Shown: piece by piece, positions 1-64,000 of the stretch
Position numbering within the stretch: the stretch's first letter is position 1
Layout of the letters: each line of letters opens with the position of its first letter
DNA from: Arenicola marina
Lineage: Eukaryota; Annelida; Polychaeta; Arenicolidae
Direction of reading: 5' to 3'
Length of the DNA stretch: 64,000 nucleotides
Assembly: GCA_964019135.1 (NCBI GenBank)
Contig: OZ025255.1
Coordinates: 28,025,188-28,089,187 of the forward strand
Made by a program: the position numbers and the translations under genes
The notes under the pieces: generated by a model
Database searches by the model: none
The model's input: only the letters and a program-made list of their open reading frames with translations
Told to the model about the DNA's origin: nothing

Positions 1-443
1 ACCCTTTGGTGAGATACACGTTTAATGGGTTTACTACAGCTTATATATAGCCAGTTCAGACCCAACCCTTTGGTGAGTTACATGTTTAATAGGTTTACTA
101 CAGCTTATAGCCAGTTCAGACCCAAACCTTTGGTGAGATACACGTTTAATAGGTTTACTACAGCTTATAGCCAGTTCAGACCCAACCCTTTGGTGGGATA
201 CACGTTTAATAGGTTTACTACAGCTTATAGCGAGTTCAGACCCAACCCTTTGGTGAGATGCACGTTTAATAGGTTTACTACAGCTTATGACGAGTTCAGA
301 CCCAACCCTTTGGTGAGATACACGTTTAATGGGTTTACTACAGTCTATAGCCAGTTCTGACCCAACCCTTTGGTGAGATACACGTTTAATAGGTTTACTA
401 CAGCTTATAGCCAGTTCAGACCCAACCCTTTGGTGGGATACAA
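1..443. repeat. Minisatellite, 60-bp unit, about 7.4 copies
   Basis: Each 60-base line of this stretch repeats the same phrase containing CCCAACCCTTTGGTGAGATA, with only scattered substitutions. The array begins before the window. Because 60 is a multiple of three, both strands show open frames made of repeated 20-residue blocks; these are by-products of the repeat. Confidence 0.95.
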
Positions 444-774
444 TCTTGGCGTGGGAATAACATACTCCGTGCATATTCTAATGTTACCGTTGACGCAATA
501 TTTTAAAGTTTAAACCCCCAATTACTGTTCGGCGCTCGAGGGTGGCGGGTGTATTTTATATCAATTGACAGCTCATAATAAGGCCCCAGTGTGTCGGTGT
601 CTATTTTGAGTGTGATTCAGCATGATGTAACCATCAGTGAATGTGTCTTTACGTGTCTTTCCAGAACAATCCCAGGCGTCCCTACTACTGACAGCCGTTC
701 AACATTGTTGCCTGCCATTCACGAAACAGAATATTGTACGTGTGTTGTTGCTGAAGCTGCTTTAACCCAAATCC
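444..774. other. Non-coding spacer
   Basis: Unique sequence between two minisatellites. I see no exon with splice sites, no RNA gene and no mobile-element signature. Confidence 0.5.
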
Positions 775-1240: not shown

Positions 1241-1290
1241 AGATCCGTTGCCGTGGTGTTTTAATTGTAGATCACTACGGATTTCAAGTG

Positions 1291-1512
1291 GAGAAAGGAC
1301 ACTGTGGCTAACAAAGCACTTCAGAAAGAATGGAGAAAGGACGCTGTGGCTAACAAAGCACTTCAGAAAGAATGGAGAAAGGACACTGTGGCTAACAAAG
1401 CACTTCAGAAAGAATGGAGACAGGACACTGTGGCTAACAAAGCACTTCAGAAAGAATGGAGAAAGGACGCTGTGGCTAACAAAGCACTTCAGAAAGAATG
1501 GAGACAGGAAAG
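1291..1512. repeat. Minisatellite, 42-bp unit, about 5.2 copies
   Basis: Five near-identical 42-bp copies of a unit containing GTGGCTAACAAAGCACTTCA. The main variation is A/G in GGACACTG versus GGACGCTG, plus AAAGG versus CAGG. Because 42 is a multiple of three, two plus-strand frames stay open as 14-residue repeats with no family resemblance. Confidence 0.93.
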
Positions 1513-2231: not shown

Positions 2232-2368
2232 TTAATACCAATATGTCTTCGCTCGTTTTCGATCGTCCGTCAGTGATAACGATTCTAGTATTTCCTGATC
2301 GAATGTCACCAGCTGAGGTTTGAAGGTCACTTGTGTCAGCTCCTTCTCTGTGGTGTCCTTATCTGACT
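2232..2368 (-). CDS. MRPL24: MRPL24 coding exon 5 (residues 197-241) with stop
   Basis: Acceptor TGTTACAG precedes AGTCAGAT. With the phase-1 G from exon 4 this reads ESDKDTTEKELTQVTF and ends RAKTYWY, then TAA. The KDT segment and the YWY terminus match the C-terminus of animal MRPL24. Confidence 0.88.
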
Positions 2369-5300
2369 CTGTAACAGGCGAGAAAAGAAATATTAAACCA
2401 GCAGCTGGGACAGATGCGCGCTACGCACGGAGGTCTCTTCTGGTCAAGTCCCAATCGACATGATGTGGCCATTCGTAACTAATGTATGTACCTTTATCCG
2501 CGTTTATTATGGCCTTTATAGATGAATTATGCCAAGCAATGCTAAGAAAAGAACGTTATGAAGGCTTTCACCCACTTAAAGGACGCCACTAATTCGCAAT
2601 CCTTTACTGAAATGTATATCATCGTCAAACCCCAAAGGCAATTAATCATCCAAAAATCACGGTATATATGATACCGTATCCATGGTACCATTATAGGTGT
2701 CCGGGTTGACCAAGTCTCTCTGGCCTAGACTGACCATTATAGGTGTCTAGGTTGACCAAGTCTCTCTGGCCTAGACTGACCATTATAGGTGTCCGGGTTG
2801 ACCAAGTCTCCCTGGCCTAGACTCACCATTATAGGTGTCCGGGTTGATCAAGTCTCACTGGCCTAGACTGACCATTATCGGTGTCTAGGTTGACCAAGTC
2901 TCCCTGGCCTAGACTGACCATTATAGGTGTCTAGGTTGACCAAGTCTCTCTGGCCTAGACTGACCATTATAGGTGTGTGGGTTGACCAAGTCTCCCTGGC
3001 CTAGACTGACCATTATAGGTGTCTAGGTTGACCAAGTCTCCCTGGCCTAGACTCACCATTATAGGTGTCTGGGTTGACCAAGTCTCCCTGGCCTAGACTC
3101 ACCATTATAGGTGTCTAGGTTGACCAAGTCTCCCTGGCCTAGACTCACCATTATAGGTGTCTAGGTTGACCAAGTCTCCCTGGCCTAGACTCACCATTAT
3201 AGGTGTCTAGGTTGACCAAGTCTCCCTGGCCTAGACTGACCATTATAGGTGTCTGGGTTGACCAAGTCTCTCTGGCCTAGACTCACCATTATAGGTGTCT
3301 GGGTTGACCAAGTCTCCCTGGCCTAGACTCACCATTATAGGTGTCTGGGTTGACCAAGTCTCCCTGGCCTAGACTGACCATTATAGGTGTCTAGGTTGAC
3401 CAAGTCTCTCTGGCCTAGACTCACCATTATAGGTGTCTGGGTTGACCAAGTCTCCCTGGCCTAGACTCACCATTATAGGTGTCTGGGTTGACCAAGTCTC
3501 CCTGGCCTAGACTCACCATTATAGGTGTCTGGGTTGACCAAGTCTCCCTGGCCTAGACTGACCATTATAGGTGTCTAGGTTGACCAAGTCTCTCTGGCCT
3601 AGACTGACCATTATAAGTGTCTAGGTTGACCAAGTCTCCCTGGCCTAGACTGACCATTATAGGTGTCTAGGTTGACCAAGTCTCCCTGGCCTAGACTCAC
3701 CATTATAGGTGTCTAGGTTGACCAAGTCTCTCTGGCCTAGACTGACCATTATAGGTGTCTAGGTTGACCAAGTCTCCCTGGCCTAGACTGACCATTATAG
3801 GTGTCTAGGTTTACCAAGTCTCCCTGGCCTAGACTGACCATTATAGGTGTCCGGGTTGACCAAGTCTCCCTGGCCTAGACTGACCATTATAGGTGTCTAG
3901 GTTGACCAAGTCTCTCTGGCCTAGACTCACCATTATAGGTGTCTGGGTTGACCAAGTCTCCCTAGCCTAGACTGACCATTATAGGTGTCTAGGTTGACCA
4001 AGTCTCTCTGGCCTAGACTCACCATTATAGGTGTCTGGGTTGACCAAGTCTCCCTGGCCTAGACTCACCATTATAGGTGTCTGGGTTGACTAAGTATCCC
4101 TGGCCTAGACTCACCATTATAGGTGTCTGGGTTGACCAAGTCTCCCTGGCCCAGACTCACCATTATAGGTGTCTGGGTTGACTAAGTCTCCCTGGCCTAG
4201 ACTCACCATTATAGGTGTCTGGGTTGACCAAGTCTCCCTGGCCTAGACTCACCATTATAGGTGTGTGGGTTGACCAAGTCTCCCTGGCCTAGACTGACCA
4301 TTATAGGTGTCTAGGTTGACCAAGTCTCCCTGGCCTAGACTCACCATTATATGTGTCTGGGTTGACTAAGTCTCCCTGGCCTAGACTCACCATTATAGGT
4401 GTCTGGGTTGACCAAGTCTCCCTGGCCTAGACTCACCATTATAGGTGTCTGGGTTGACCAATTCTCCCTGGCCTAGACTGACCATTATAGGTGTGTGGGT
4501 TGACCAAGTCTCCCTGGCCTGGACTCACCATTATAGGTGTCTGGGTTGACCAATTCTCCTTGGCCTAGACTCACCATTATAGGTGTCTGGGTTGACCAAG
4601 TGTCACTGGCCTAGACTCACAATTATAGGTGTCTGGGTTGACCAAGTCTCCCTGGCCTAGACTGACCATTATAGGTGTCTGGGTTGACCAAGTCTCCCTG
4701 GCCTAGACTCACCATTATAGGTGTCTGGGTTGACCAAGACTCCCTGGCCTAGACTCACCATTATAGGTGTCTGGGTTGACCAAGTCTGTCTGGCCTAGAC
4801 TCACCATTATAGGTGTCTGGGTTGACCAAGTCTCCCTGGCCTAGACTCACCATTATAGGTGTCCGGGTTGACCAATTCTCCCTGGCCTAGACTCACCATT
4901 ATAGGTGTCTGGGTTGACCAAGTGTCACTGGCCTAGACTCACAATTATAGGTGTCCGGGTTGACCAATTCTCCCTGGCCTAGACTCACCATTATAGTTGT
5001 CCGGATTGACGAAGTCCTCCAGCTCCCTGGCACCGCTCGGCAGTGGGATGATGCGGCCCGTGTGGACGGCCACTCGCACCTTGTCTCCGGCCTCCGTGTA
5101 TCGCCACTCCACCTCTGTGGGCTGACTGCTCACAGGACACGCCAAGACAGACAGACACGTTTGTACAGGTCACAGACACACCGACACACAGACAGACAGC
5201 TGTTACCTTACAGTATAACAGTAATAATCTAGTTATCGCTCGCAAAAGAAAATCTTATCACTATATTTATCAATTTAGAACTCACATCTCTCGAAGAAAT

Positions 5301-8300
5301 ATAGCTGTAGGGCAAGGCATATTGATGATTTAAGTTTATGATACATCATGATATTGTCGCGACGTATTCTCATAATATATTCATAACATCTTGTCTCGCT
5401 CCCCATGTTGAAGGGGAGTTGAAGAGATGCAAAATCCAAGATGGCCGCTTGTGAACAAACTAGGAGAGTATTTTCATCTGTTTAGTATATTTTTTCTCAG
5501 AGTACCTATAATGTTACAATTACCAGTTCATTTATCTTGATATATCTAGGGTATGGATTTTATATTTGTATACAATAATGCCCGGATGAGAGACTGATTA
5601 ATGGTCTCACTTGTCAGACGGGTCCACAAGTCGGACTTGCGTGGTGACCAGCAGAGGGCGCTCTCTCATTTGACAGATAGGCACCATGTCCGGGTGCTGG
5701 GAAGCCACGCTGTAGTCCTGTAACGAGGCGACGGGGAGAAGGTAACCATCAACAAACACAGGCACAGAACATTACAGGACGTAGATATATGTGGTTGGTT
5801 GTATATTCAGGAAGCTTTAACCACTGTTGATCACATCGCGTCAATGAGAGAAGGAAGGGAAAGTGGAGCCATGTCCCCCGGGGTAACCCCCTACTCTTTG
5901 CGAAGAAGGACTTGGTATCTATATCCTGCGACCACACAGACATGGCCACAGCGGGGCTCGAACCACCGATCCACGTGCCGTTAGGCTCTCAGGTGGCCAG
6001 GGTGCTCAAGGCGAGCGTTCTAACCCACTGAGCTATCGGGCCGGCCCTAGATATATGTGGACTACGAAAGGGAAGAGTTTGGACTTGAGGGGTGATACAA
6101 ACGTCCAGCGTATTATAATGACAGGTTTCCAGCAGCTTAAGCTTAAATTCCGAAGAATTTTGTCCCTCGGTTAGTCTAATGACTCCAACGATTATGAAAA
6201 TACACACAAGACAAGTGTTTGAATGTAGAATAGATCTGAGACAAGCCAACACTATATATGCAGTTCTACAACGGACAGATGGCTCAAGCTTTCCCGGCGG
6301 GAAATTGCAACGATAGTTGGCCGCCCCACAAAAACTAAATACATACGCAGTTCAGGCCTTCGACGTACACCCAGTTCCGTTCCTTGATGATAGAGTTGAT
6401 GATGCCTTGTTTGCCTTTGTCTCTGCCCACCAGAATCTCCACCTGGATAAAGAAAAGTAAGCACAGGTGGCAGTCAGAGAGTGTCGCCAATGTAACAGCT
6501 TGACCAAGGCAGCAGCAAGGTGCTTTGCTGAACATGAATGCTAAATCGGGCCAAAAACCCTTGCAGGACAATGAAATGGGGTTGGGCGAAAATTGCTGGA
6601 GCTAGGGTTCGAACCCACGACCAGTTGATCCGCTGCAGCTCGACCTGCTTACCCACTGAGTTAGGCAGGCACCCCGTCGGCCCGGGATGGATAGTTTGTA
6701 GGCCGCTCTGGTCACGATCGATTCTAGGTCGGTAGCAGGGTAGCAGTGTACATTAATCACAAGTTACCTCCAGGACAAGACGTCGTCCTCGGTACATCGC
6801 GGCAGTGGCACATGGTGTCTTATACAGTCTAGCTTATCCAGCGTTTAAGTGTTAAAAAGAAATACCTTACTACATATAGACTACATATAGACTACTAAGT
6901 TAAGATCAAAACTATGTTTGCCAATCCTCAGTTCAATGGATGCGGGAAATCTCAACCGACACGTTGTTTCCTGGCGGTACCCGCGCGTAGTTCCAAATGT
7001 GCGTTCAGCTGCAGATCCTATGCAGTCTAAGTTACGCCTGTTCGGGCGTCATTTGGCATTGCTACCATAGTGAATGCATATTGTGGTTGGTTATTCAGGG
7101 CGCTTTAACTACTTTTGTTCATATCGCGTCAATGGGAGAAGGATGGGAGAGTGGAGCCATGTCACCGGGGGTAACCCCCTACTGTTTACGAAGAAAGACA
7201 TGGGATCTTTATCCTGCGACCACACAGATGTGGCCACAGCAGGGCTCGAACCACCGATCCATGTGCCGTTAGGCTCTCAGGTGACCAGAGCACTTAATGC
7301 GAGCGCTCTAGCCTAAAGCTCTAGCCCGAAGACGAATGGCAATGGTGATCTGAGGTGCTTTTCTCACTTCTATTTTCCAATGTCCACTGACCAGCTCCAC
7401 AATCCAAACTTTACATTGCGATACAAATTAATATTTCTTTGGATAAAAACAATGGCTTAGAAAGTGGTTTTTAATAGTTTTATTAACGACACACGTATTG
7501 GCATTCCATAACATCACGTCATTCCTGGAGAGCACTGATATTTTAAAATACGAGAGACAAGCATCATTCATTGTTCTTTATGGTAACAATTTCATGATTA
7601 AGATTATTCGGAAAATATGCGACATAATTGCATAGGTCTTAACGCCAAGAAAAGAATGCTAACTGCATTAACTTTACAAGCTCTTTAATATAATATGCAG
7701 AACTACAGCAATTCATACATCATTTACCAGATTTAGGTGGATACGGTAATGTTGTCATGGCAACGAACCAGAGAAAACAGCCACAAGACGCCATATTCAC
7801 GTAATTTGCATAGAAAACATGTAACCAGTTCTACCTTCAACGAGCCAATAATCGTCAAAATAATGAGACATCCGGCAAAAAGTGTAAATAGACACTATGA
7901 ATATAAGTCTAAAATAATATTACTCAGTCTTCTATTGTTTGTAAAATGTTTCACACGTATTTTAATCCTTCACATGCGAGAAAAGCGTTATTATGCACAA
8001 AAAACACACATTCATGTTTACGCCATTGTCATAGCGAACGATTGTTGTCGTCGCGGGACGAGGTAAGTCTGTTGTACATACCAGAAAGCACCAGAGTTAC
8101 CAGACCACTGGGTCGGGTCATAATTCAGCTCGATGATACCTACTCTCTAACGTCAGACACACGAGGACTCTCTTGGCACATAAGTATACCCTGACTAGCT
8201 GCATTTCAAACGAAAATCATCATTTGAGGGTATCCAAGTAGCATTTGGTCACATCGAAAACATGTTACAACCTCGTGACTTCGTAGCATGGTCTTGAGAT

Positions 8301-11300
8301 AAATATAGATGGTAATACTGATATATCTACGCCACGAAACCGCTTCAATCAACGTGTATAATAACTTAGTAAATAGGTCATCTCCGTAGTCATTATCAGA
8401 CCACAAGTCAATATCAAGCATCGCGACCTTGATTAATGTCAGTGCTCCATATAGACGGGCCCTTGAGATGCTACAGTAGATAGAAGTATTAATTGCCGAT
8501 ATTAGTTAATGGATCATAAAGCTGAGCTGTGCGCCTGCAGGAATTCTTCATAATACATTGTTCCACAGGAACAGGCTGTAATAGCCAGAGGTAGGCGATC
8601 GTGGTGCACGGAATTTGAAAGGGGGGAAGTAAGGTATATCTTAGGGTCTGAAATGGATAGGGGGGGGGGCACGTGTCCCCTGTGCCCCCACCCCTGGTAA
8701 GCGGACACATAATTTTAAAAGGGTGGTGGGGGGTACAGATATATCTTAGGGTCTGAAAGAGGGGGCACGTGCCCCCTGCCCCCCCCCCCCCACCTTCCCC
8801 TCTGGAGATGTGAGTGATGAGACAAGATATAATCGCTTTAAAGACAATGGCAAAGATATGGAAATAAGGGCAACATCCCAAGCTGGCTTCACAGAAGGTT
8901 CAGACTGACGGATGCGAGGTTTGCTACAGCTGTCTAACTAAGATCCCCTGGAGTGTAAAATCCCTTCACGGAGAAGCAAACTAGAAACAAATCGAAATAA
9001 AAATTCAAACCGTTTTTTGCTCATTCTTGACACTTCACTTACCAATAACTCTCAAAAAGCGGAACTCACTGGGAACAAGCAGGCCCTCGAGGGGCCGGGG
9101 GGGGGTCACTTCAACCAGGGGCTTCACCAGCACGTGCAGCGGGAGGTTAGTTGCAGTGTGGTCCAAAACATGTTGCCCAAGCAGTCACTAGCGTTCGCAA
9201 AAAAAACAAAAAACGAAACTAGCACGGAAGAGAGTGTCCTCGGTGTAGTTACAAGACACAGGGATGCCAGTGGGTCTCTATAACCGGCACGTTGACGGCG
9301 CACAGCGACCAGGCATAGATAGATAGGCATGATGGCTGCCTCAAATAGACCAGGGTCGAGGTCGACCGACCCTCAATCAAGTGAGTGAGGGTAGAGCATG
9401 GTTGAGATCGACCCTCAATCAAGTGAGCGAGAGGGCACAGACGGCCACGACCTCACTTGAAGTCCGGGTGGGCGGGGAAGTTACACCCCCAGTGCTTGAC
9501 GACCACGGAGGCAGCGTACTGGCCGGCCCGGAGACAGTCCTCGAGAGGAGCGCCCCGCACCTGCTGCGACAGGAACCCCCCGACGAAGGCGTCGCCGCAG
9601 CCGTTCGTGTCCCGGATGTCGGCCTTGCGCACGGGGATGATGGGGTGCTCGCTGACCCGCCCGTCCACGGCCACGACGGTCGGGTCGACGCCTTGGGTGA
9701 AGACCACCATGCGGCTCCGGCCGCCGCTCTTGGCCTGGGGCAGCGCCGCCGTCCGCAGCGCCATCTCGCGAATGTCGTCCGTCTCGATGCCGCGCTCTCG
9801 GCAAAACTCGGCCGCTTCCGTCTCGTTGCCGAAGAGGATGTCGATGTACGGGGTGATGTCGGGCTTCTTGGCGGCGAAGTACTTGCAGAGGAAGGGGGCC
9901 GACAGGTTCATGGCCAGCACCTTGTCGTGTTCCGCCGCGTGCTGCGCCACGTCGAAGATGGCCTGGTTGCACACGGGGAACACGAACCCGCCGATGTAAT
10001 AGAAGCGCGCCTTCTCCACCAGGGACCACGTCTCCGGAAGCTCCAGCCAATCGTGCCGGAAGTAGTCGGCGGCGCCGAGGTGGGCCACCAGCGAGCGGTT
10101 CTCCCCCGTGATGACGGCGCCGCACACCCCGGTCGGCAGGGACTCGCACAACTGGTAGTGGACGTTCACCCCGGCCTCACGCGCCTTCTCCTCCAGGATC
10201 CGACCCCGCTCGTCGCTACCCACGCACCCCAGGAACGTCGTCGCCAGCGGCCGTCCCAGCATCCACTGCGCCACGCGGATGCTGTTTTGCGTGGCGCCCC
10301 CTGCCAAGTAGTCGGGGTGGAGATTGGCCATCATGTCTTGAAACATGGGCATTTGGCGGGGTCCGGCGATAATGGCGTCGTTCGCCTTCAGGCCGTACTT
10401 CTCCAGGAAGTGGGTGTCAGCCCGTACAGTGATGTCCAGCAACGGGTTGCCGATGCCTAGCAACACACCCTCCGCGATATCCTCGGCGGCCATCTTGTCG
10501 ACCGTTGTGGAGTGGAAGCTTCGGCTGAGTAGCGCGCCCGGCACACGGCTATTGCAACGCTGGCCTAAGGGGTTGCCACGGTTTCGGGTGCCAGAGAGGA
10601 GCGAGAGGCCACGCGTGAAGGGGCTGGCGCGGTCAGGGTCGGAGTAACGTCCAGGGCCAGGCTGTGAACTAGGCCAAGGGATACAGTCACTGGCCGCTGA
10701 GGTACATTCAACCTACAACAGTACATACAACACCGACTCAGTATCGTCATACATGCGCAACGCACACTGAGTACGTATGTTAGGGTCCAAAACGTCATAG
10801 TGACGAAAACGTCAGATCACACGGTCTGAGCCATCTAGGAGCAAATGTACAGTTTCACACTGTGCCTCGATCGCAGTGTCTGTTGACGGGGGCTATGAAT
10901 ATATGAGACAGTAACTCTTCAGTTTCAGATATATTTAAGTGCTTTCATAAACGATGGAATATGGGTATCGCCCCCCCACCCCCTCCCTCCGGGTCCATCC
11001 CTTGAAACCTTCTAGTCCAAGAAACCTTAGATTTCCTTATTTTCCTGCGCCTTAATTCGTAAATATCGGCCCCCAAGAGGTCTCCAATTGTCAATCAATT
11101 AATCCTTTCGCCCCGAGTGGCCCCGCCCCGTCTTCTTCAGAAACGCCACGCAGGGTTGTGTGAGCGATAAGCGGGATGGTTGAAATTAAACTTTTAACTG
11201 TATATTTCATTCTACCAAGGTATGACGTTTTGGTCACTATGACGTTTTGGGTTCTAACATACGTACACCCCGCCGTGCACAACACCCGCAGAGTACACAT

Positions 11301-14300: not shown

Positions 14301-15165
14301 CTACCTGCGCCAAAAGGATTATCTCTTTGACGCATCGCGTTGGACGTTTCGCTGCGAACGTCCTGGACTGCGAGTGGTCGGTGGTTCGAGTCCGAGCCAA
14401 GGCGGGTACCAAAATTTCCGGTCAGTTCGTGACTCTTGATCCCCGTATACAGCAAGTACACTCAGCAGGAACATGACTATATAATGTGTTAACGATGCAA
14501 TTGAAAATGTGTCATCAACCCACAGTGATAAATCATTGTCTGCAACGCCCGTGCAGGAATACGTGGGAGTCAAGGAATCCAGGAGGCCATCTATCCATCT
14601 ACTGACTTATCTCTATATATTTATCTCACACACGATTCTCGAAAAAATAAATGAAAATAGAGTTCAAAGTAAGAGTTTCCACTTCGTCTCCGTCTAACAT
14701 GCGAATACTGTATAAACTGTACATGCCGGAGTCTCCCTTCACTCAGACTGTTCAAGATGTGAAAGCAAATAGAGTTAAAAGTGAGTTTCCACTTGGTCTC
14801 CGTCTAACATGATGTAGCAACTACCCTACATACTGTAAACGTTGGAGTCTCCCTTCACTGACCTCTTTACTCAGACTCCGTGAAATAAAACAGAGTAAAA
14901 AAAACTGTTCACTTACTCTGTCGCCTTTGAAGATGTGCCAGTCCTTCAGCGGCTGCACAAGCACGCGCTTCGGTCGCTTGCCTAGCGGGTTTTCCTGGTG
15001 GAATTGATCTTCCCAGGGTCGATGTTCGGTGTAGACAAACTTCCTCTTCTTGATTTCCTTGAAGCCGGTGAGTGGATGCCACTGACTCCGCACCCGCCCT
15101 TCATACAACGCTCGGTCTATATAGCGCTTGAAGTAGTTCCTGCATAACGGTACAGTTAGACGCAT
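2232..15165 (-). CDS. MRPL24: Mitochondrial large-subunit ribosomal protein L24, full gene, 5 coding exons
   Basis: This encodes the mitochondrial bL24-family protein, a structural component of the mitoribosome large subunit made in the cytosol and imported into mitochondria. Coding exons on the minus strand are 14917-15165, 6347-6442, 5611-5717, 4989-5125 and 2232-2368. They total 726 nt, exactly 241 codons plus TAA, and all junctions are GT-AG and in phase. The joined protein starts MRLT, like other animal L24 proteins. It carries the KOW segment (GDRVEILVGRDKGKQG, about residues 81-96), then RNWVYVEGLN, VRLVDPSD and PTEVEWRYTEAGDKVRV, and ends in YWY, all recognisable from animal MRPL24. 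It is somewhat longer than the roughly 216-residue human protein. Intron 1 (8.5 kb) contains an adenosine kinase-like gene; intron 4 contains a minisatellite copied from the exon 4 boundary. A 5' UTR exon may exist, since TTTGCAG precedes 15210. Confidence 0.92.
2369..2685. other. MRPL24 intron 4, unique 3' part
   Basis: Unique AT-rich intron sequence between exon 5 and the 46-bp array. Nothing further is recognised. Confidence 0.6.
2686..4988 (-). repeat. 46-bp minisatellite built from the MRPL24 exon 4 5' splice site, about 50 units
   Basis: On the minus strand each 46-bp unit has 28 nt resembling the end of exon 4 (ending ACACCTATAATG), then GTGAGT or GTCAGT, then CTAGGCCAGGGA. The template at 4971-5016 is the genuine exon end (ACAACTATAATG) with donor GTGAGTCTAGGCCAGGGA. 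The array directly abuts that donor. I counted boundary motifs every 46 bp from about 2731 to 4986. Around 31, including the authentic site, keep GTGAGT and around 19 read GTCAGT. Confidence 0.95.
4989..5125 (-). CDS. MRPL24: MRPL24 coding exon 4 (residues 151-197)
   Basis: 137 nt from acceptor GAGCAG to donor AATG|GTGAGT. It encodes QPTEVEWRYTEAGDKVRV and then TGRIIPLP, very close to the human PTEIEWRFTEAGERVRV and SGRIIPKP. It ends DFVNPDNYN in phase 1. The last 28 nt of this exon plus the first 18 nt of the intron are the template of the adjacent 46-bp minisatellite. Confidence 0.92.
5126..5610. other. MRPL24 intron 3
   Basis: Non-coding, including a short CA/GA-rich stretch (ACAGACACACCGACACACAG near 5168). 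One CAAGATGGC motif lies at 5437-5445. No mobile element is recognised. Confidence 0.6.
5611..5717 (-). CDS. MRPL24: MRPL24 coding exon 3 (residues 116-151)
   Basis: 107 nt from acceptor CGTTACAG to donor GTGAGA. It encodes DYSVASQHPDMVPICQ and ends PLLVTTQVRLVDPSD, matching the PLLxxxQVKLVDPxD stretch of animal MRPL24. Relative to the human protein there are small length differences before the MVPI segment. It ends in phase 2. Confidence 0.88.
5791..6047 (-). mobile_element. tRNA-derived SINE, full-length copy A
   Basis: Read on the minus strand it begins GGCCGGCCCGATAGCTCAGT. It contains an A box (TAGCTCAGTGGG) and a B box (GGTTCGAGCCC), then a unique body, and ends AATATACAACCAACCAC. It is flanked by a direct repeat TAGATATATGTGG (5782-5794 and 6048-6060), which supports insertion by target-primed reverse transcription. 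It sits in MRPL24 intron 2. Related copies occur near 7.2, 41.9, 43.2, 50.7 and 52.2 kb. Confidence 0.88.
6347..6442 (-). CDS. MRPL24: MRPL24 coding exon 2 (KOW motif, residues 84-115)
   Basis: 96 nt bounded by acceptor TTATCCAG and donor GTATGT, phase 0 on both sides. It encodes VEILVGRDKGKQG followed by RNWVYVEGLN, the KOW domain that contacts rRNA in the L24 family. Confidence 0.9.
6537..6690 (-). mobile_element. Second tRNA-derived SINE family, one copy
   Basis: On the minus strand: GCCTAACTCAGTGGGTAAGC (A box) and, about 50 bases on, GTGGGTTCGAACCCTAGC (B box), then a T/C-rich body. The head is tRNA-like but differs from the more common SINE in this window. Boundaries are approximate. 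It lies in MRPL24 intron 1. Confidence 0.6.
7083..7327 (-). mobile_element. tRNA-derived SINE copy B, head decayed
   Basis: Same family as the copy at 5791-6047. Body, B box (GGTTCGAGCCC) and tail match closely, but the 5' head is altered: the A-box region reads through a short CTCTAGCC duplication instead of the usual GGCCGGCCCGATAGCTCAGT. It lies in MRPL24 intron 1. Confidence 0.8.
7328..8620. other. MRPL24 intron 1 unique sequence
   Basis: AT-rich intron with no recognisable gene, RNA or mobile element. Short open frames here lack splice sites and family resemblance. Confidence 0.55.
8621..8815. repeat. Tandem pair of about 110 bp with G/C palindromes
   Basis: The phrase TATATCTTAGGGTCTGAAA occurs twice (near 8635 and 8740), each time followed by a G-run, CACGTG and a C-run. 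The second copy contains the perfect palindrome GGGGGCACGTGCCCCC at 8761-8776. This resembles the end of a dispersed repeat, but the family is not identified. Confidence 0.65.
9453..10544 (-). CDS. Adenosine kinase-like protein, intronless (probable retrogene)
   Basis: A 363-codon uninterrupted frame encoding a PfkB-family adenosine kinase, which phosphorylates adenosine to AMP using ATP in purine salvage. Visible marks are the N-terminal GIGNPLLDI (about residues 30-38), AGGATQNSIRVAQW (81-94), NRSLVAHLGAA, NLSAPFL, DILFGNETEAAEF, VVFTQG and the C-terminal catalytic loop DTNGCGDAFVGGFL (312-325), whose second Asp (about 318) is the family's catalytic base. Length matches animal ADK (about 345-362). 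Animal ADK genes are normally split, so an intronless copy suggests retroposition. It lies inside MRPL24 intron 1 on the same strand and is far more GC-rich than its surroundings. An alternative start at Met18 (10493) matches the usual ADK N-terminus; the first 17 residues (MPGALLSRSFHSTTVDK) could be a mitochondrial leader or UTR. The anion-hole loop reads GCGD where GAGD is usual. No poly(A) remnant or polyadenylation signal was seen downstream. Confidence 0.85.
   Translation of the reverse strand: MPGALLSRSFHSTTVDKMAAEDIAEGVLLGIGNPLLDITVRADTHFLEKYGLKANDAIIAGPRQMPMFQDMMANLHPDYLAGGATQNSIRVAQWMLGRPLATTFLGCVGSDERGRILEEKAREAGVNVHYQLCESLPTGVCGAVITGENRSLVAHLGAADYFRHDWLELPETWSLVEKARFYYIGGFVFPVCNQAIFDVAQHAAEHDKVLAMNLSAPFLCKYFAAKKPDITPYIDILFGNETEAAEFCRERGIETDDIREMALRTAALPQAKSGGRSRMVVFTQGVDPTVVAVDGRVSEHPIIPVRKADIRDTNGCGDAFVGGFLSQQVRGAPLEDCLRAGQYAASVVVKHWGCNFPAHPDFK
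10545..11284. other. MRPL24 intron 1, upstream of the ADK-like gene
   Basis: GC content falls away from the kinase gene. Apart from a C-rich run near 10974-10990 I see no promoter element that can be named and no exon. Confidence 0.5.
11285..11780. repeat. Minisatellite, 31-bp unit, about 16 copies
   Basis: Copies of ACATCGATATAAACAAACAC plus CTGACAGTGT recur every 31 bp, each carrying the palindrome ATCGAT. One copy is shortened (11520-11540). Because 31 is not a multiple of three and the unit lacks minus-strand stops, all three minus frames are open for hundreds of bases; these are artefacts. It lies in MRPL24 intron 1. Confidence 0.94.
12130..12690. repeat. Minisatellite, 60-bp unit, about 8 copies, one disrupted
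   Basis: The phrase CAGCCACCATCTAGAGGTAT recurs at about 60-bp spacing, followed by CTTGGTGTACGCTCGGAAT. The regular spacing breaks near 12320-12395, where short phrases around AACTCCCTAG are themselves repeated. It lies in MRPL24 intron 1. Confidence 0.9.
12691..14640. other. MRPL24 intron 1, mostly unique sequence
   Basis: No exon or RNA gene recognised. Near 14392 the phrase GGTGGTTCGAGTCCGAGCC fits a tRNA B box and could belong to an old SINE, but I find no convincing A box. Confidence 0.45.
14651..14875. repeat. Imperfect tandem duplication, about 110 bp, next to MRPL24 exon 1
   Basis: The phrases AATAGAGTT, GAGTTTCCACTT, CTCCGTCTAACATG and GGAGTCTCCCTTCACT appear in the same order twice, in adjacent blocks. 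It ends about 40 bases from the exon 1 donor. Confidence 0.65.
14917..15165 (-). CDS. MRPL24: MRPL24 coding exon 1 (residues 1-83)
   Basis: ATG at 15163-15165 begins the MRLTVPLCRN leader, a basic N-terminus suited to mitochondrial import. The exon ends DWHIFKGDR at a consensus donor, AGA|GTAAGT, in phase 0. The open frame continues upstream to a possible acceptor (TTTGCAG before 15210), so the mRNA exon may begin there. The start was chosen because animal MRPL24 proteins begin with a similar MRLS/MRLT. Confidence 0.88.
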
Positions 15166-59139: not shown

Positions 59140-59385
59140 GGGTAACGGTAGTGGTGGTGGTGGTGCTAGTAGCGGTGATGGTGCTAGTAGCGGTAGTGGC
59201 GATGGTGGGGATGGTGGTGGGGCTAATAGTGGTAGTGGTGATGGTGATGGTGCTGGTAACGGTAGTGGTGATGGTGATAGTGCTAGTAACGGGAGTGGTG
59301 ATAGTGGTGATGGTGGCTGTGCTAGTAGCGGCAAAGGTGGTGGTGGTGATGGTGCTGGTAGCGGTAAAGATAGTAAAGGTAGTGT
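59140..59385. repeat. Cryptic trinucleotide repeat (GGT/GAT/AGT/GCT)
   Basis: Runs of GGTGGTGATGGTGCTAGTAG type. Frames are open in several phases (Gly/Ser/Asp or Val/Met rich), as expected from such a repeat. It leads directly into the 40-bp array. Confidence 0.85.
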
Positions 59386-62300
59386 CTATCTGCCCCATGT
59401 TAAACATACCGAGAGGTCAAAGTGTCTATCTCCCCCATGTTCAACATACCGAGAGGTCAAAGTGTCTATCTCCCCCATGTTAAACATACCGAGAGATCAA
59501 AGTGTCTATCTTCCCCATGTTAAACATACCGAGAGGTCAAAGTGTCTATCTTCCCCATGTTAAACATACCGAGAGGTCAAAGTGTCTATCTCCCCATGTT
59601 AAACATACCGAGAGGTCAAAGTGTCTATCTCCCCCATGTTAAACATACCGAGAGGTCAAAGTGTCTATCTTCCCTATGTAAAACATACCGAGAGGCCAAA
59701 GTGTCAATCTGCCCCATGTTAAACATACCGAGAGGTCAAAGTGTCTATCTTCCCCATGTTAAACATACCGAGAGGCCAAAGTGTCTATCTGCCCCATGTA
59801 AAACATACCGAGAGGTCAAAGTGTCTATCTTCCCCATGTTAAACATACCGAGAGGCCAAAGTGTCTATCTTCCCCATGTTAAACATACCGAGAGGTCAAC
59901 GTGTCTATCTCCCCCATGTTAAACATACCGAGAGGTCAGATTGTCTATCTTCCCCATGTTAAACATACCGAGAGGTCAGATTGTCTATCTTCCCCATGTT
60001 AAACATACCAAGAGGTCAAAGTGTCTATCTTCCCCATGTTCATCATACCGAGAGGTCAAAGTTTCTACCTTCCCCATGTTAAACATACCGAGAGGTCAAA
60101 GTGTCTATCTTCCCCATGTTAAACATACCGAGAGGTAAAAGTGTCTATCTTCCCCATGTTAAACATACCGAGAGGTCAAAGTGTCTATCTTCCCCATGTT
60201 AAACATACCGAGAGGTCAAAGTGTCTATCTCCCCCATGTTAAACATACCGAGAGGTCAAAGTGTCTATCTTCCCCATGTTAAACATACCGAAAGGTCAAA
60301 GTGTCTATCTTCCCCATGTTAAACATACCGAGAGGTCAAAGTGTCTATCTCCCCCATGTTCAACATACCGAGAGGTCAAAGTGTCTATCTTCCCCATGTT
60401 AAACATACCGAGAGTTCAAAGTGTCTATCTTCCCCATGTTAAACATACCGAGAGGTCAAAGTGTCTATCTTCCCCATGTTCAACATACCGAGAGGTCAAA
60501 GTGTCTATCTGCCCCATGTTCAACATACCGAGAGGTCAAAGTGTCTATCTGCCCCATGTTCAACATAGCGAGAGGTCAAAGTGTCTATCTGCCCCATGTT
60601 CAACATAGCGAGAGGTCAAAGTGTCTATCTGCCCCCCATTGAAACATATTGAGAGGTCAAAGTGTCTATCTGCCCCATGTTCAACATACCGAGAGGTCAA
60701 AGTGTCTATCTGCCCCATGTTCAACATACCGAGAGGTCAAAGTGTCTATCTTCCCCATGTTCAACATAACGAGAGGTCAAAGTGTCTATCTGCCCCATTT
60801 ACAACATATTGAGAGGTCAAGGTGTCTATCTGCCCCATGTTCAACATACCGAGAGGTTAAAGTGTCTATCTGCCCCATGTTCAACAAAACGAGAGGTCAA
60901 AGTGTCTATCTGCACTACGTACAACATACCGAAAGGTCAAAGTGTCTATCTTACCCATGATCAACATACCGGGAGGTAAAAGTGTCTATCTGCCCCATGT
61001 TCAACATACCGAGAGGTCAAAGTGTCTATCTTCCCCATGTTCAACATAACGAGAGGTCAAAGTGTCTATCTGCCCCATTTACAACATATTAAGAGGTCAA
61101 GGTGTCTATCTGCCCCATGTTCAACATACCGAGAGGTTAAAGTGTCTATCTGCCCCATGTTCAACATAACGAGAGGTCAAAGTGTCTATCTGCCCTACGT
61201 ACAACATACCGAAAGGTCAAAGTGTCTATCTGCCCCATGTTCAACATACCGAGAGGTCAAAGTGTCTATCTTCCCCATGTTATACATACCGAGAGGCCAA
61301 AGTGTCTATCTGCCCCATGTTAAACATACCGAGAGGTCAAAGTGTCTATCTTCCCCATGTTAAACATACCGAGAGGCCAAAGTGTCTATCTGCCCCATGT
61401 AAAACATACCGAGAGGTCAAAGTGTCTATCTTCCCCATGTTAAACATACCGAGAGGCCAAAGTGTCTATCTTCCCCATGTTAAACATACCGAGAGGTCAA
61501 CGTGTCCATCTCCCCCATGTTAAACATACCGAGAGGTCAAAGTGTCTATCTTCCCCATGTTAAACATACCGAGAGGTCAGATTGTCTATCTTCCCCATGT
61601 TAAACATACCAAGAGGTCAAAGTGTCTATCTTCCCCATGTTCATCATACCGAGAGGTCAAAGTTTCTACCTTCCCCATGTTAAACATACCGAGAGGTCAA
61701 AGTGTCTATCTTCCCCATGTTAAACATACCGAGAAGTAAAAGTGTCTATCTTCCCCATGTTAAACATACCGAGAGGTCAAAGTGTCTATCTTCCCCATGT
61801 TAAACATACCGAGAGGTCAAAGTGTCTATCTCCCCCATGTTAAACATACCGAGAGGTCAAAGTGTCTATCTTCCCCATGTTAAACATACCGAAAGGTCAA
61901 AGTGTCTATCTTCCCCATGTTAAACATACCGAGAGGTCAAAGTGTCTATCTCCCCCATGTTCAACATACCGAGAGGTCAAAGTGTCTATCTTCCCCATGT
62001 TAAACATACCGAGAGTTCAAAGTGTCTATCTTCCCCATGTTAAACATACCGAGAGGTCAAAGTGTCTATCTTCCCCATGTTCAACATACCGAGAGGTCAA
62101 AGTGTCTATCTGCCCCATGTTCAACATACCGATAGGTCAAAGTGTCTATCTGCCCCATGTTCAACATAGCGAGAGGTCAAAGTGTCTATCTGCCCCATGT
62201 TCAACATAGCGAGAGGTCAAAGTGTCTATCTGCCCCCCATTAAAACATATCGAGAGGTCAAAGTGTCTATCTGCCCCATGTTCAACATACCGAGAGGTCA

Positions 62301-64000
62301 AAGTGTCTATCTTCCCCATGTTATACATACCGAGAGGCCAAAGTGTCTATCTGCCCCATGTTAAACATACCGAGAGGTCAAAGTGTCTATCTTCCCCATG
62401 TTAAACATACCGAGAGGCCAAAGTGTCTATCTGCCCCATGTAAAACATACCGAGAGGTCAAAGTGTCTATCTTCCCCATGTTAAACATACCGAGAGGTCA
62501 AAGTGTCTATCTCCCCCATGTTAAACATACCGAGAGGTCAAAGTGTCTATCTTCCCTATGTAAAACATACCGAGAGGCCAAAGTGTCAATCTGCCCCATG
62601 TTAAACATACCGAGAGGTCAAAGTGTCTATCTTCCCCATGTTAAACATACCGAGAGGCCAAAGTGTCTATCTGCCCCATGTAAAACATACCGAGAGGTCA
62701 AAGTGTCTATCTTCCCCATGTTAAACATACCGAGAGGCCAAAGTGTCTATCTTCCCCATGTTAAACATACCGAGAGGTCAACGTGTCTATCTCCCCCATG
62801 TTAAACATACCGAGAGGTCAGATTGTCTATCTTCCCCATGTTAAACATACCGAGAGGTCAGATTGTCTATCTTCCCCATGTTAAACATACCAAGAGGTCA
62901 AAGTGTCTATCTTCCCCATGTTCATCATACCGAGAGGTCAAAGTTTCTACCTTCCCCATGTTAAACATACCGAGAGGTCAAAGTGTCTATCTTCCCCATG
63001 TTAAACATACCGAGAGGTAAAAGTGTCTATCTTCCCCATGTTAAACATACCGAGAGGTCAAAGTGTCTATCTTCCCCATGTTAAACATACCGAGAGGTCA
63101 AAGTGTCTATCTCCCCCATGTTAAACATACCGAGAGGTCAAAGTGTCTATCTTCCCCATGTTAAACATACCGAAAGGTCAAAGTGTCTATCTTCCCCATG
63201 TTAAACATACCGAGAGGTCAAAGTGTCTATCTCCCCCATGTTCAACATACCGAGAGGTCAAAGTGTCTATCTTCCCCATGTTAAACATACCGAGAGTTCA
63301 AAGTGTCTATCTTCCCCATGTTAAACATACCGAGAGGTCAAAGTGTCTATCTTCCCCATGTTCAACATACCGAGAGGTCAAAGTGTCTATCTGCCCCATG
63401 TTCAACATACCGAGAGGTCAAAGTGTCTATCTGCCCCATGTTCAACATAGCGAGAGGTCAAAGTGTCTATCTGCCCCATGTTCAACATAGCGAGAGGTCA
63501 AAGTGTCTATCTGCCCCCCATTGAAACATATTGAGAGGTCAAAGTGTCTATCTGCCCCATGTTCAACATACCGAGAGGTCAAAGTGTCTATCTGCCCCAT
63601 GTTCAACATACCGAGAGGTCAAAGTGTCTATCTTCCCCATGTTCAACATAACGAGAGGTCAAAGTGTCTATCTGCCCCATTTACAACATATTGAGAGGTC
63701 AAGGTGTCTATCTGCCCCATGTTCAACATACCGAGAGGTTAAAGTGTCTATCTGCCCCATGTTCAACAAAACGAGAGGTCAAAGTGTCTATCTGCACTAC
63801 GTACAACATACCGAAAGGTCAAAGTGTCTATCTTACCCATGATCAACATACCGGGAGGTAAAAGTGTCTATCTGCCCCATGTTCAACATACCGAGAGGTC
63901 AAAGTGTCTATCTTCCCCATGTTCAACATAACGAGAGGTCAAAGTGTCTATCTGCCCCATTTACAACATATTAAGAGGTCAAGGTGTCTATCTGCCCCAT
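59386..64000. repeat. Minisatellite, 40-bp unit, about 115 copies, extends past the window
   Basis: The unit is CAAAGTGTCTATCTTCCCCA followed by TGTTAAACATACCGAGAGGT. Variants (CTGCCCC or CTCCCCC; TTCAACATA; GAGAGGCC; CAGATTG) form ordered blocks. The segment from about 59640 to 61118 reappears at about 62520-64000, an offset near 2882 bp; further shared blocks sit about 1602 and 1280 bp apart. Confidence 0.95.

Follow-up and report, generated by a model that had tools for sequence, protein, structure and literature searches.

The subject of this analysis is a tandem array of splice donors in the last intron of MRPL24, situated in a 64,000-bp stretch of contig C8 (C8:28025188-28089187, hereafter the window). 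The array is a 46-bp minisatellite on the minus strand (2687..4988) in which each unit carries a copy of the junction between the preceding coding exon and the intron, with 50 copies lying past the authentic boundary. Arrays of the same anatomy start at splice donors of other genes in this genome, and we consider it probable that the element is a recurring, near-neutral minisatellite seeded by a splice donor, of the type described in amphioxus as mirages. The genome (867 Mb, 762 contigs) was available as a single haploid assembly, and a contiguous sample of 284 kb (284,000 bp) around the window was examined for tandem arrays.

The MRPL24 gene and its array

MRPL24 is read from the minus strand. 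Coding exons at 6347..6442 (VEILVGRDKGKQG...EGLNC), 5611..5717 (DYSVASQ...VDPSD), 4989..5125 and 2232..2368 (ESDKDT...TYWY, stop) splice into one open reading frame of 158 residues and a stop codon, which aligns end to end with the MRPL24 chain 4ce4_Y (E=2.1e-38). An N-terminal coding exon at 14917..15150 (...YTEHRPWEDQF...WHIFKGDR, coding part as found) ends at a donor GTAAGT. The exon at 4989..5125, of which the 3' end is the template of the repeat unit, on its own matches PF17136 (5.5e-6) and has its authentic donor, GTGAGT, from 4988 down; the acceptor AG of the last exon lies at 2370-2369. An earlier note on this DNA had the acceptor (2369) and the last exon right, the frame being open through the junction; its exon 4 is the fourth of the five coding exons found, a number to be taken as a label. 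Identities of the protein are 64% with Lineus, 61% with Lamellibrachia and 56% with Capitella, the best match overall being 70%.

Tandem Repeats Finder delimits the array at 2687-5016, with a period of 46, 50.7 copies and 94% matches. It is joined directly to the donor at 4988 of the gene's own coding exon, from which 51 boundaries follow at exact 46-bp spacing down to 2688. The array of about 50 donor copies adjoining the real donor that the earlier note had described is thereby borne out. GTGAGT is found at 31 boundaries (the authentic one included), GTCAGT at 19 and GTACCA at one; the previous count of 31 was correct, but the total of 50 had omitted the last boundary (GTACCA). The units hold exon end and intron start, the array is joined to its own boundary, and the splice signals are mostly kept, as is characteristic of mirages.

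The direction of copying follows from the protein. The exon ends in DFVNPDNY, of which the aligned D is kept in 119 of 120 homologs and the Y in all 120, and the three closest homologs have RIIPLPSGAKELEDFVNP in common at this end; being conserved as protein, the exon end is the older of the two, and the array was copied from it. The exon has a single match in the genome (in a search that skips very common words), and within the 284 kb the 46-bp unit occurs only in the MRPL24 array (50 matches). The proposed origin from MRPL24's own junction is supported by these results. A satellite origin of the unit, considered as a candidate, is not favoured in view of the conserved exon end and of the absence of the unit elsewhere in the 284 kb.

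The composition of the unit differs from the equation with the last 28 nt of the exon and the first 18 nt of the intron that had been put forward. The exon end is indeed copied, but only 22-25 of the 28 positions are identical in units 1-50. The word GCCAGGGA, previously counted as intron, recurs in the exon, a short way upstream and separated by a gap of 7 nt (a shared word of at least this length was found in 31 of 11,136 comparison stretches), and because of this recurrence the unit probably consists of about 36 exon-derived and 10 intron-derived nt, with one early deletion. The units carry common fixed differences from the exon, and no gradient of identity to the exon was detected along the array (rho 0.05, P=0.72), both of which would be expected after a single founding copy followed by homogenisation.

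Use of the array donors was considered from sequence only, with reading frames computed for 12 of the 50. When the exon is extended to any one of the first 12 array donors, the identical in-frame TAA inside unit 1 is included, and the predicted protein would end ...NPDNYNGESRPGRIGQPGHL, with loss of the C-terminal part. Since the TAA lies in unit 1, the remaining array donors should include it as well. The frameshift and early stop previously expected from array donors are thus confirmed, and in a stronger form than claimed (12 of 12 computed donors, one TAA in unit 1). If all array donors bring a stop, the authentic donor would have to be used for the gene to work.

Recurrence at other donors

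Two further arrays of this kind are present in SUGP1, a plus-strand gene that occupies the flank upstream of the window (L002) and ends within the window. The 48-bp array (L002 3875-4508, plus strand, 13 boundaries) begins at the donor of the exon ...GTWEHKRRTMEMVATR. The exon join across it is gap-free at the join to SUGP1 chain 8gxl_A (E=2e-24), and the pattern fits 102 of 120 homologs. Its last copy ends GGTAACAC, like GGGAACAT at the start of the copied exon tail, a short resemblance of the sort that slippage would exploit or leave behind. The 60-bp array (L002 6350-10000 and window 1..442, plus strand, unit 60 or 64 bp, 68 boundaries) belongs to the donor of ...RMMLAYRFRPNPL; it starts at L002 6350 (C8:28021537), the exon concerned ends at C8:28021555 and the distal end is at window 442. 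The last coding exon (665..691, plus strand; NNPRRPYY, stop) follows in the message on the exon that precedes the 60-bp array, and this join is supported by the presence of RFRPNPLNNPR in 118 of 120 SUGP1 homologs. As Pfam returned no family on the SUGP1 exons, PDB and homologs were used instead. The protein is 55% identical to that of Lamellibrachia, and annelids and one nemertean are among the best named relatives of the MRPL24 and SUGP1 proteins. Random placement would give 0.09-0.17 arrays where two were found (P 0.003-0.013, based on a manual count of 11 donors and on a region picked for a similar array).

Tandem arrays as such are common in this genome: 74 arrays with a period of 12 or more and 3 or more copies were found in the 284 kb, covering 93,254 of 284,000 bp (32.8%). 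Three of the 74 are proven donor arrays, in a region picked because of one. Another ten have units containing GTRAG; seven of these were viewed by their edge and none of the seven was judged to be at an exon, negative arrays here and below being judged by eye.

Genome-wide, tandem patterns were counted as matches, not as arrays, with the reversed pattern as control. Three tandem GGTGAGT gave 45,738 matches versus 27,837 reversed (1.6-fold), and three tandem AGGTAAGT gave 7508 versus 2935 (2.6-fold). The arrays listed for two donor patterns (4 + 7), all on contig C1, were fetched, and 7 of the 11 begin at an apparent exon donor. Three of the seven have homology above the Pfam cut-offs: an exon donor of histidine ammonia-lyase (HAL) (L026; PF00221 5.5e-7, 6v6h_A 3.9e-9), an ALDH1L1-like exon aligned to its last codon (L028; PF00171 7.1e-8, 7yjj_B 1e-24) and a TTL-like exon (L032; PF03133 6e-15). 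A lustrin-like exon (L025; 1.7e-4, below the curated cut-off) and a transmembrane exon (L027; 6.1e-5, below the cut-off) follow, and for L033 and L031 the exon comes from the open frame only, without Pfam match. No exon donor was seen at the edge of L024 and L030, and the remaining two were assigned to neither group, the array of L029 filling the whole fetched stretch and L034 being ambiguous. The next exon of HAL (PF00221 1.6e-15, ending VVEHVEQ) starts a second, degenerate array of about 22 bp with mostly GTCAGT (L026 2800-3250, C1), so that HAL, like SUGP1, has two. The unit sequences at the MRPL24 donor, the two SUGP1 and two HAL donors and the ALDH1L1-like and TTL-like donors are gene-specific, whereas the anatomy is alike. 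Among three reversed-motif control arrays that were fetched, no exon was seen at the edges (the left edge of L036 lies beyond the stretch).

The strength of the donors was scored as pairing to a U1-complementary consensus in 11 arrays including those of MRPL24, SUGP1 and HAL. The median copy scores at least as high as the first donor in 10 of the 11, the exception being the SUGP1 60-bp array (lower). In the ALDH1L1-like array 25 of the 31 other scored copies are full matches to CAG/GTAAGT, and 5 of 9 copies in the first HAL array score above the authentic donor. Since the copies score as high, the first donor would not be chosen for its own strength.

Origin and significance of the arrays

The formation of the MRPL24 array can be envisaged as follows. 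A short tandem duplication across the exon/intron boundary would have produced a copy that lost 7 nt early and gained the fixed differences, and slippage or unequal exchange may then have amplified this copy to about 50 units, all of them intronic. The exon-proximal donor, which alone follows the real exon and preserves the frame, would keep splicing, the array donors being mostly bypassed; transcripts that use one of them would carry the early stop and presumably be lost to nonsense-mediated decay. Such arrays would recur because a complete exon and donor persist after a duplication across a donor, which is therefore nearly neutral.

Several observations weigh against this explanation. Use of the first donor is deduced from the sequence, and most of the copies equal the authentic donor in strength, which leaves their neglect unexplained. 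The share of GTCAGT units rises with distance from the exon (GTGAGT versus distance, rho -0.36, P=0.012), a trend that might reflect selection against decoys close to it. Among the matches listed for C1, the first 19.6 Mb hold 7 donor-pattern and 6 reversed-pattern arrays (by eye); with array numbers so similar, part of the excess of matches is due to long arrays. An acceptor-like tandem pattern gave 1710 matches versus 427 reversed (4.0-fold), an excess above that of the donor patterns, which leaves donor specificity unproven. The ratios of match counts are a weak test, since long arrays dominate them and the acceptor-like pattern is raised too. Ten acceptor-like candidates occur in the 284 kb, of which six were looked at. 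One, a 35-bp array at C8:27952344-27952811 (L020 7157-7624) with an acceptor-like motif, precedes open frames of 64 and 79 residues without Pfam match; it is possibly an acceptor-side mirage, the following frame perhaps being a last exon.

A functional role can also be considered, in which U1 binds to the array donors and their use or occupancy is frequent enough to reduce or regulate MRPL24 output via early-stop transcripts. The 31 of 51 boundaries that keep GTGAGT, the U1 pairing of the median copy in 10 of 11 arrays and the single stop reached from all computed array donors would suit such a field of decoys. Similar arrays in unrelated genes rather fit a mutational origin, no column pattern of the units marks the donor positions as protected (by eye), and amphioxus mirages are reported not to interfere with regular splicing (PMC3087553, PMC3902484). 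The regulatory reading of the earlier note (decoys, U1 titration, isoforms) is accordingly possible but not favoured, and we regard it as unlikely. It is still more improbable that the intron itself is new, with a repeat copy providing the donor and later an AG acceptor, as in the intron birth by duplication of Rogers; an Ebner-type model of this kind was proposed for the mirages of amphioxus globins (PMC3087553). The protein runs continuously through the junction in line with its MRPL24 relatives, and conservation of the exon preceding the array reaches as far as the donor, although neither says anything on the age of the intron.

We attach hardly any credence to a pre-existing satellite that invaded the gene, or to an assembly artefact. 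Tandem arrays are hard to assemble and make up 32.8% of the 284-kb sample, but the exon end is conserved protein, the examined arrays have gene-specific units, and the MRPL24 units vary, form types and are found nowhere else in that sample. Compatible with near-neutral seeding is the notion that donors are, beyond being places of tolerance, a mutational birthplace of minisatellites, through their sequence, transcription or R-loops. The two SUGP1 arrays against 0.09-0.17 expected and the 1.6- and 2.6-fold excess of donor patterns in matches point in this direction, whereas the 4.0-fold excess of the acceptor-like pattern and the 7 versus 6 arrays on C1 point away from it; we consider this extension doubtful, though less so than the preceding alternatives.

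Whether donor-seeded minisatellites form a genome-wide class of about a thousand arrays, in which the exon-proximal of dozens of equal donors is reliably spliced, is in our judgement evenly balanced. The figure of a thousand is extrapolated from a single contig, in which two exact motifs led to 3 arrays within the first 2.9 Mb and 4 within the first 19.6 Mb. If it holds, some genes would contain several arrays, each with as many as a hundred or more near-identical donors, and splice donors would be a major source of new minisatellites and of longer introns in this genome. How one of several identical competing 5' splice sites is selected is generally investigated in constructs that carry two or three of them. 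The present arrays offer 10 to more than 100 near-identical donors in conserved genes, each beside an authentic exon, which makes the choice among equals testable, and if splicing is faithful, effects of exon body and position could be separated from U1 pairing. Since the exon fixes the ancestral sequence, the arrays also reveal the birth of a minisatellite and its direction of growth, which normally cannot be known, and they suggest a route of intron lengthening.

Other features of the region

A single-exon open frame on the minus strand (window 9453-10712) is nested in the first MRPL24 intron; it resembles adenosine kinase and is probably a retrocopy. Stretches resembling transfer RNA (tRNA) and short interspersed elements were noticed by eye in MRPL24 introns (window ~5880-6050, 6590-6680 and 7100-7310). 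SUGP1 is itself a splicing factor by name, and its 48-bp array stays open in frame over several units. A C-rich array with a unit of about 15 bp (L002 2718-3684) stops about 60 bp short of the acceptor belonging to the SUGP1 exon with the 48-bp array. Between SUGP1 and MRPL24, a 42-bp repeat (window 1289-1509) is open as WRKDTVANKALQKE in one frame. At the other end of the window, a 40-bp array extends from 59381 to 64000 and on into the stretch that continues past the window end (L003 1-6027), amounting to about 10.6 kb and 266 copies, and a 50-bp array at L003 7437-10000 has a unit that holds a tRNA B-box-like GGTTCAAACCCC and was perhaps seeded likewise from a tRNA-derived element.

Comparison with known systems

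A human counterpart is the minisatellite of the 6-16 gene (IFI6/G1P3), reported in 1995 to have multiple splice donor sites, the 12-bp units of which are said to be used as alternative donors. There, too, a minisatellite reportedly provides many donors in one gene, whereas in MRPL24 use of an array donor is predicted to truncate the protein. The intron gain modelled by Rogers likewise involves a tandem duplication that includes a splice signal, with the difference that the array here extends an intron. Internal tandem repeats at exon-intron boundaries of human segmental-duplication paralogs are reported to be able to alter splicing or to create novel introns; they have on average 4 units of 30 bp and belong to young paralogs, whereas long arrays in conserved genes are found here (PMC2812944). 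Intronic repeats of earthworm metallothionein were considered as a parallel and set aside, since they are not shown there to copy a donor (PMC12783039). No report of such arrays from annelids or other lophotrochozoans was found among the matches listed for the literature searched, a search with most subscription journals outside its scope.

The closest relatives are the mirages of amphioxus, tandem repeats across exon-intron boundaries which are described from Adh3 (units of 10-72 bp), the globins BflGb6 and BflGb9, TnC and PGBD5; those of the globins, found at 5' as well as 3' boundaries, consist of 3 and 6 units of about 150 bp in two haplotypes (PMC3087553, PMC3902484). The likeness consists in boundary-spanning tandem units joined to the authentic boundary. 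Compared with what is given there for the globins, the present arrays have 10 to more than 100 units of 22-60 bp, occur twice in single genes, belong to a lophotrochozoan-like genome and are proven for donors only. The amplification of an exon/intron junction, which the earlier note called unusual, is so in comparison with ordinary genomes, but it recurs at other donors here and has been published for amphioxus. Judged by their sequence, the arrays have the mirage-defining features that were examined, i.e. boundary-spanning units, a junction to the own boundary and kept splice signals. Their kind is thus already known from amphioxus; the novelty lies in the host group, the copy number and the occurrence of more than one array in single genes.
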